Source of the DNA: an uncultured Eubacterium sp.
GTDB lineage: Bacteria > Bacillota > Clostridia > Lachnospirales > Lachnospiraceae
Reading direction: 5' to 3'
DNA length: 64,000 nt
NCBI GenBank assembly: GCA_947089855.1
Contig: CAMUML010000001.1
Span: 157,844-221,843 of the forward strand
Both the position numbers and the translations under genes were made by a program. How positions within the stretch are numbered: position 1 is the stretch's first letter; each line of letters opens with the position of its first letter. The notes under the pieces are model-generated. The model saw nothing but the letters and a program-made list of their open reading frames with translations. It had not been told where the DNA came from and did not search any database. Below are positions 7,288 to 54,901 of the stretch, one piece after another.

Positions 7288-7641
7288 ATGACAAAATTAT
7301 ATGAGCATGAAATACAGAGAAGTAACATCACTCCAAAGCAGTTCTTTACATATTGCAAAAATCAACTTAGCAAGAAGGGTATTGACATAGAAACATGGGT
7401 TGAATTTGAAAATTGGGAAAACCCAACCACTCCTTGCAATAGTACATCAAAACACGAAGATTGGGAAGAACCGCAAACAGAAGTGTGCAAATTACAGCCT
7501 TATGACTGGCAATTGTTTTTACAAAACGCTTACAACCTTATCATCGAATTTGACTTTTGGGATGATAAGAAAGGGTTTGGATACCTGTATATAAAAGAAT
7601 ATGAAGATAAAGCCGTTGCGGTAGCTTTAAATAACCATTAA
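7288..7641 (+). CDS. hypothetical protein, 117 residues
   Basis: ATG 7288 follows GGAGG within a longer open frame; the upstream part lies across the iterons and is not used. The product is acidic and rich in Trp and Phe (ETWVEFENWENP, FDFWDDKKGFGYLY). It begins a plus-strand run of three small genes. A CCGGCA-GGAA-TGCCGG hairpin (7653-7668) lies between it and the next gene. I do not recognise the family. The operon is probably controlled by the RHH protein. Confidence 0.72.
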   Translation: MTKLYEHEIQRSNITPKQFFTYCKNQLSKKGIDIETWVEFENWENPTTPCNSTSKHEDWEEPQTEVCKLQPYDWQLFLQNAYNLIIEFDFWDDKKGFGYLYIKEYEDKAVAVALNNH

Positions 7642-7707
7642 GCCGCAAGTGTCCGGCAGGAATGCCGGGGTTGGAAAATATAAAAGAAAGGTTAAAAGGC
7701 GGAGAAT

Positions 7708-39581: not shown

Positions 39582-39694
39582 TGCAAAAACCTCCTTTTGC
39601 CATTGCGCCTATTTTCTTATTTGCCCAGTATAACAGCCATTGCAAAAATTTTCAATACAGCCCGCTGCTTTCGCGGTTAAGTAGGTTATATAGG

Positions 39695-39837
39695 GTTACT
39701 ATTCACGGGCCAGGAATGCGCATAAACTGCGCATTCCGTGAGAACATGATTCAGGAGTGAGGGGCGGTTTTGCGAAGCAAACTTCTAATATCGCCCCGAA
39801 TGTTACTATGAGCGGCCCCCAGGCCGTGAATAGTAAC
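39695..39837. mobile_element. miniature inverted-repeat transposable element, copy A (143 bp)
   Basis: GTTACTATTCACGG at 39695-39708 is a perfect inverted copy of 39824-39837. The element is flanked by TATATAGG on both sides (39687-39694 and 39838-39845), an 8-bp target-site duplication. Inside are two hairpins (39713-39737; 39761-39797 with a nested TTTGC-GAA-GCAAA) separated by TGATTCAGGAGTGAG (39747-39761), and an inner GTTACTAT at 39802. No coding capacity. It must depend on a transposase elsewhere. Confidence 0.9.
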
Positions 39838-39929
39838 TATATAGGGTGTAAAACAGCAGTGATTCGTTTTGACAATTATTACCAATAAGAGTAAAATATA
39901 GCTATACTTTAATTTAGGAGGGGATGTAA

Positions 39930-54337: not shown

Positions 54338-54901
54338 GATTGGTGTGCTCCTTTCCCATATGTGCTGGCGCGCGGCTGCTATAGATGTAGCCTGCGTTTG
54401 GTTTTGCTAAAATGTTTTTATTTATCATATCATAGTATGAAAAATTTTCCTATCTTTTATTTGGCTTGCGCCCACAATGTCATTTACTTAAGAAATCCCT
54501 GCAAATTACTGTTGCCGCACAGCCTTTTTGCAGTGTTTAAGGTTTTGAATGGATCAATTGTTACTATTCACAGCCACCTGGACACCCCGCTGTTCAGGTG
54601 GCTGCCAAGCTGATTCAGGAGTGAGCAGGCTCCAATTTGCAAGGCAAATTCTTTAAATGAGCCTGCGAATGTTACTATTTACAGCTTCATAACTTAGAGT
54701 GTTTGTCAAGAGAAAATTAGCTGTGAATAGTAACGATCAATTTGCTTTGCTGTATTGCAGTTGGAAGCATATATTGCAGCTTAACGGCTCAAAATGACCG
54801 CTTACTGCCGATAGCATTGTTTTCTTTTGATTTTCTGCTATGGTAAATATAAAGGCAGGGTAAACAGCTAGCCTTTGGAAAATAAAGAAAGGATATAAGA
54901 A
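54338..54901. other. intergenic region holding a miniature transposable element
   Basis: There is no gene between the NUDIX gene and the ABC transporter. The region carries the mobile element at 54560-54734 and, near its right end, AAGAAAGGATATAAGAAATG, a ribosome-binding site for the ABC ATPase. Confidence 0.6.
54560..54734. mobile_element. miniature inverted-repeat transposable element, copy B (175 bp)
   Basis: GTTACTATTCACAG at 54560-54573 is a perfect inverted copy of 54721-54734. GATCAATT flanks both ends (54552-54559 and 54735-54742), an 8-bp target duplication. Inside are hairpin one (CAGCCACCTG/CAGGTGGCTG, 54571-54604), the conserved TGATTCAGGAGTGAG (54611-54625), hairpin two (GCAGGCTC/GAGCCTGC, 54625-54666, with nested ATTTGC-AAG-GCAAAT) and an inner GTTACTATTTACAGCT that pairs with the right end. 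The layout matches copy A at 39695. No coding capacity. Confidence 0.9.

Follow-up and report, generated by a model that had tools for sequence, protein, structure and literature searches.

The middle of a small mobile element of Lachnospiraceae forms a fold of three hairpins (P1, P2 and P3) that is under selection, so that the element is more than a decaying MITE; we regard it, with high confidence, as a MITE with a selected fold. Two copies, A and B, lie in the window (the whole stretch of 64,000 nucleotides analysed, from an uncultured Eubacterium sp.). Each is an intact miniature transposon that ends in terminal inverted repeats and is flanked by an exact 8-bp duplication of its target. 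The pairing of P1, P2 and P3 is kept across genera although most of the stem letters have been replaced.

Two copies with one layout

Copy B (54560-54734, 175 bp) has exact 8-bp repeats GATCAATT on both flanks, and copy A (39695-39837, 143 bp) is bounded by 8-bp repeats TATATAGG. The order of parts is the same in each: left repeat (L), P1, a linker with the core, P2 enclosing P3, internal repeat (I) and right repeat (R). I is a third copy of the terminal repeat, starting at 54671 in B and at 39802 in A, and forms a palindrome of its own together with R; the earlier note does not mention it.

Copy B
54552-54559, no strand: left target-site duplication GATCAATT, repeated exactly at 54735-54742 (sequence)
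54560-54575, plus: left terminal inverted repeat GTTACTATTCACAGCC, inverted partner at 54720-54734 (sequence)
54571-54604, plus: hairpin P1, CAGCCACCTG (54571-54580) with CAGGTGGCTG (54595-54604) (sequence, folding; P1 covaries among relatives)
54611-54625, plus: core in the linker, TGATTCAGGAGTGAG, whose ATTC can pair with GAAT at 54667-54670 (pattern search)
54625-54666, plus: hairpin P2, GCAGGCTC (54625-54632) with GAGCCTGC (54659-54666), with an unpaired 3' segment (sequence, folding, covariation)
54634-54650, plus: nested hairpin P3, AATTTGC-AAG-GCAAATT, loop AAG; most relatives have a GNA loop (sequence)
54671-54685, plus: internal third terminal repeat (I) GTTACTATTTACAGC (sequence)
54671-54734, no strand: right-hand 64-bp I-R unit, also found solo elsewhere in the genome, sometimes with its own 8-bp duplication
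54720-54734, minus: right terminal inverted repeat (sequence)
54735-54742, no strand: right target-site duplication GATCAATT (sequence)

Copy A
39687-39694, no strand: left target-site duplication TATATAGG (sequence)
39695-39837, plus: complete 143-bp element (sequence)
39713-39737, plus: hairpin P1, GGAATGCGCA-TAAAC-TGCGCATTCC (sequence, folding)
39747-39761, plus: core TGATTCAGGAGTGAG (pattern search)
39761-39797, plus: hairpin P2, GGGGCG/CGCCCC, with nested P3 TTTGC-GAA-GCAAA at 39769-39781 (sequence, folding)
39802-39837, no strand: repeat I (39802-39809) to right terminal repeat (39822-39837), hairpin-forming (sequence, folding)
39838-39845, no strand: right target-site duplication TATATAGG (sequence)

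The 15-base core occurs exactly twice in the window, once in each copy, and there is no further match in the window at up to two mismatches (mean of 0.03 in 100 shuffles). Both copies are located between divergent genes: a DUF2804 gene and an FGGY-type kinase gene for A, a NUDIX gene and an ABC transporter ATPase gene for B.

Direct reading bears out the parts that the earlier note had named in copy B, namely its ends, its 8-bp duplication, the core shared with A and the stems; the nested TTTGC/GCAAA is retained as well, P3 being present with a GAA loop in A and an AAG loop in B. The claim of compensatory change between the two copies stands only in part. The stems are present and paired, but the outer stem of B overlaps the left terminal repeat and is shifted by about three columns relative to A, so these two copies by themselves cannot be compared column by column for compensation. 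Since two copies cannot show compensation, relatives were collected.

Copies in the source genome and relatives

In the source genome, which comprises 4.08 Mb in 101 contigs, the core is matched 153 times at up to two mismatches, versus twice for the same pattern read backwards as a control. After collapsing identical copies, 84 distinct exact-core sequences remained among the collected loci of this genome: 50 full-length A (29 with exact 8-bp duplications), 13 full-length B (9 with exact duplications) and 21 incomplete. Copies of one subfamily are nearly identical there, which is why the source genome alone cannot test A-versus-B compensation.

When named genome contigs were scanned with core and repeat, 48 loci turned up; they belong to 15 assemblies whose titles read Lachnospiraceae, Eubacterium, Hungatella or uncultured bacterium. 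The covariance model R1, built from 40 sequences, matched all 15 of these genomes, which had been picked for already containing matches, with 4 to 146 matches per genome at E≤0.1 and with at most 150 candidates scored. In an even sample of the family, R1 matches at E≤1e-7 were found in 12 of 120 genomes (11 of 119 genera), source genome included. An exact-pattern survey of 397 genomes of the family had the source genome as its sole match, and this reflects the limit of the pattern, because the covariance model matched 12 of 120. Further subfamilies differ in stems, linker and ends (e.g. GTTACTGTTCAC and GTAACAGTTCAG). The core is thus not universal: other subfamilies share the fold but carry a different linker, as does subfamily E, the third one of the source genome, a 160-bp element laid out like A and B with exact duplications in three loci (L044, L051, L068).

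There was no exact match in viral contigs and no match to copy B in plasmids, and among phage sequences one faecal scaffold matches A. This unverified and unannotated scaffold (MT836555.1, locus L391), labelled as phage from human faeces, carries a copy of the element at positions 360-478 (90.6 bits) and may be bacterial DNA.

Covariation of the stems

Before the covariation test and the two counts described below (P3 loops; TGATTC with GAA), 37 of 136 distinct rows were dropped for lacking an internal-repeat match or having more than six gapped letters. The pair cells of the 99 intact rows comprise 2005 Watson-Crick, 59 G-U, 26 A-C, 43 other and 45 gapped; for all rows the respective numbers are 2499, 115, 56, 73 and 249. 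Covariation was scored by an R-scape-like G-test with average-product correction on 82 distinct rows, relative to 40 null alignments in which parsimony changes were moved along the tree. Fourteen of the 22 proposed pairs reached E<0.05 over 22 tests and nine did so over all 2145 column pairs, while no unproposed pair reached E<0.05 over the same 2145. The eight pairs that fail are in some cases nearly invariant and in others just short (two in P1 at 0.08-0.09).

Two other sets lead to the same picture. In alignment A4 (69 distinct rows) 96.9% of cells are paired, as against 21-61% for slid structures, and 19 of the 22 pairs change on both sides; there are 132 both-side cells versus 20.4 in shuffles, and none of 500 shuffles was as high on any of five measures. 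The second set takes the best match from each of 11 further genomes in 11 genera, each copy being the top scorer of its genome; none was used in training the model, and one genus is that of the source. Here 95.0% of stem cells are paired, and both-side change is seen in 17 of the 22 pairs, a level reached by 6 of 500 shuffles; both-side cells number 74 versus 23.7 in shuffles (0 of 500 as high). For the covariation test as well as for these sets, the structure model was used to align the rows, and such alignments lean to its own fold.

The earlier note's central claim, that structure is selected beyond what a decaying MITE would show, is thus borne out by the tree-based test, by A4 and by the eleven genera, and the check it had proposed on collected copies with a covariance model gave covariation above the phylogenetic background. 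An ordinary MITE, with hairpins as a by-product and folding unselected, would account for the ends, the duplications and the near-identical recent copies, all of which are usual for MITEs. It is contradicted by stems that stay paired through replacement of most of their letters across genera, unless the covariation is an alignment artefact, and we consider it very improbable.

Folded DNA or RNA

Covariation in excess of the phylogenetic background would be seen with RNA and with DNA alike. The P3 loop is GNA in 83 of the 99 intact rows (GAA 43, GCA 23, GTA 10, GGA 7). In 79 of the 83 a C-G pair closes it, and GAA alone sits on 12 different stems. CGAAG is found at P3 in all eleven new genera, the model itself having GAA-like loops. 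Portions of PMC4686876 describe DNA mini-hairpins with a GNA or GNNA loop as exceptionally stable when the loop sits on two or more G-C pairs. The opposite strand would carry TNC loops, which would favour the plus strand. The loop is not universal: AAG in copy B and AAA in subfamily E count against the DNA reading.

G-U pairs are 59 of 2064 standard pairs in intact rows (2.9%) and 4 of 228 in the eleven genera, compared to 16 of 193 (8.3%) in 12 tRNAs of the collected loci, a small set parsed by a simple rule. At the same time G-U exceeds A-C in the stems, both in cells (59 versus 26) and in terminal-branch events (24 versus 8), which is what RNA would give and speaks against DNA. A strand test based on G-U versus A-C events was set aside, as unpaired sites are equally skewed and singletons show no significant skew. 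There is also a hint of pairing outside the hairpins: GAA, GAAT or GAATC follows P2 in 65 of 66 rows with TGATTC and in 6 of 33 rows without it, so that the GATTC of the linker is mostly matched by GAAT(C) past P2, though only as a hint because the rows are related.

Among 143 elements with flanks, those between tandem genes are evenly oriented (39 in the same direction, 38 opposite), 42 are between divergent genes, 10 between convergent ones and 4 at edges. The divergent excess relative to intergenic length shares has p=0.002 (smaller locus set, rough ORF calls). No promoter-like site was found inside copy A; B has one weak site (9 of 12) at its right end, with 0.8 expected by chance in the stretch, and no terminator-like sites were seen around either copy. 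A role as leader or terminator tied to one orientation was rejected given the even tandem sites and the absence of a terminator-like site. According to rough ORF calls, ten of the 143 elements overlap an ORF of more than 150 codons, all antisense and none sense; possibly the element has an open frame on its minus strand. This asymmetry counts against the explanation that we prefer.

These observations bear on the possibility that the element carries a structured RNA riding on a MITE, transcribed from outside or via a missed promoter and acting in trans or altering the stability of host transcripts; passages of PMC2229807 propose effects of stem-loop RNA on mRNA for NEMIS and ERIC. The covarying helices, the excess of G-U over A-C and the strong RNA folding z-scores of the source-genome consensus sequences (-8.4 for A and -6.6 for B, the terminal repeats contributing part; -3.2 for B trimmed to P1-P2) agree with such a role. 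So does locus L278, where a related repeat with P1 and linker, read by eye, is an apparent 5' leader of a gene. It is opposed by the even orientation between tandem genes, by the absence of a promoter-like site in A and the chance level of the weak one in B, by the lack of a terminator-like site, by the scarcity of G-U pairs and by the absence of a related Rfam family. We consider a structured RNA somewhat doubtful. The evidence leans to pairing at the level of DNA, folded DNA being more likely than RNA, and on balance we think, with limited confidence, that the fold acts as DNA.

At L278 (3272-3500) an A copy is inserted in the related repeat with P1 and linker. The start of the gene downstream presumably resembles RpiR regulators.

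Mobility and proposed mechanism

The whole element and its I-R part have moved in the past. In the collected loci, an exact 8-bp duplication flanks 110 of 197 end pairs of 118-180 bp (63 of 106 in the source genome, 47 of 91 in others), and an exact 9-bp duplication 6 of 197. One A copy is nested in a B copy and carries its own duplication (L060/L065). The 64-bp I-R part of B is found solo at 12 collected source-genome loci (each palindrome counted once), with an exact duplication in four and one with a single mismatch in two; at least one of the remaining six, L226, looks like a truncated B. Since such solo units have duplications of their own, the P1-P2 module is not essential for transposition.

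Elements of 143 and 175 bp present in many copies are too short for a transposase gene. Two families, IS66 and IS256, were searched for a partner, and none was found in them. IS66 was rejected, as its remnants in the source genome lack the ends of the element; no IS256-type match was seen in the source genome, and two of six genomes have IS256-type fragments. No end pair longer than 407 bp with a duplication was found in the collected loci at up to one mismatch per end. At up to two mismatches there is a 1163-bp pair in L245, rejected since it encloses only ORFs of 98 and 99 aa (limit 80 aa), neither of transposase size.

Transposition as single-stranded DNA, of the IS200/IS605 or REPIN/RAYT type, in which a tyrosine transposase reads hairpins on one strand, would fit compensatory change in hairpins and loops that are stable on one strand; REPIN hairpins also show compensatory change, predicted in single-stranded DNA or mRNA (parts of PMC3116915). 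Terminal inverted repeats together with exact 8-bp duplications in more than half of the end pairs argue against it, and so does the balance of orientations between tandem genes, which stands in roughly for the replication strand. We know of no long inverted terminal repeats in IS200/IS605 or REPIN/RAYT elements, and to our knowledge IS200/IS605 elements make no target duplications. This route appears improbable.

The best explanation as a whole, which we hold with modest confidence, is a MITE whose selected fold is used as DNA. Both copies are non-autonomous members of a superfamily found in Lachnospiraceae, and a putative transposase, probably of the DDE type, would move them in trans. The pairing of P1, P2 and P3 would take place in DNA, as a single strand or an extruded cruciform, and the folded middle may kink or compact an element too short for easy bending, or be read by a protein. 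In this way the fold could help the transposase or host factors to engage the ends, and copy number would rise as a result, while the I-R unit alone could still move. Beyond this, we tentatively suggest that P1-linker-P2 represents an undescribed functional class of nucleic acid, possibly a folded DNA device around the C-GNA-G mini-hairpin, set on a MITE chassis and kept across genera of Lachnospiraceae for a role separate from the cutting and joining of ends.

Relation to known repeats

At Rfam 15 gathering scores no family covers copies A and B in the window. The only match there is elsewhere, a Pistol ribozyme on the plus strand at 7611-7675 (42.4 bits versus a gathering score of 34.5). For six loci scanned at E≤1, three sub-threshold matches to unrelated families were obtained, all in L345 beside the element. 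In the open-access literature, judged by titles and starts of abstracts, no paper describes the family; the core letters are in no paper, and papers with the end letters are unrelated by the same criterion. The earlier note had suggested an 'undescribed structured mobile RNA or element'. The absence of a related Rfam family agrees with this, but the RNA part is unsupported: the ends and duplications are those of a MITE and the evidence leans to DNA.

The structured bacterial MITE is already known as a kind, judging from portions of PMC2229807 and PMC3116915; what is new here is how the element is laid out, its loop motif and how far its stems have turned over. ERIC/IRU, NEMIS/Correia and RUP are similar in having about 100-160 bp, terminal inverted repeats and many copies (PMC2229807, in part), but they differ in hosts and ends, and the present element is set apart by 8-bp duplications, an internal third repeat, the linker motif, a nested mostly-GNA hairpin and stem turnover between genera. 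The CIR elements of Caulobacter also have two arms with a linker, and GANTC in the repeat where the core here has GATTC; the same excerpts call CIR only partly MITE-like, whereas ends and duplications are complete here. REPINs with RAYT differ, as terminal repeats of 12 bp and more with 8-bp target duplications are found here. Bcr1-type repeats of the Bacillus cereus group are mobile, structured chromosomal repeats, alike in these two respects by description only, and differ in host.

MITEs are usually treated as parasitic remnants. Here a fold has been kept while most of its stem letters were replaced, and it is present in roughly one in ten of the genera sampled from a gut family, which suggests that something probably reads it. 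With its many natural compensatory variants, the superfamily lends itself to the question of whether folded DNA or folded RNA is used by bacterial mobile elements, and of which host or transposase protein recognises the fold.

Composite and neighbouring repeats

In five A copies (L067, L072, L099, L101, L107) the left repeat is interrupted, always at one site, by a second small element whose ends resemble CAATGTCATTTACTTAAG. The resulting composites (four of 266 bp and one of 407 bp) each carry their own exact 8-bp duplications, so the pair seems to move as one unit. Letters similar to this second element are also present near position 54475 of the window. Yet another repeat family was noticed at L197, L198 and the flank of L089; its ends resemble GTTACATTCACAGCC / GTAACCGTTCAG, and it contains a long hairpin, GTGGCCTCCC...GGGAGGCCAC.
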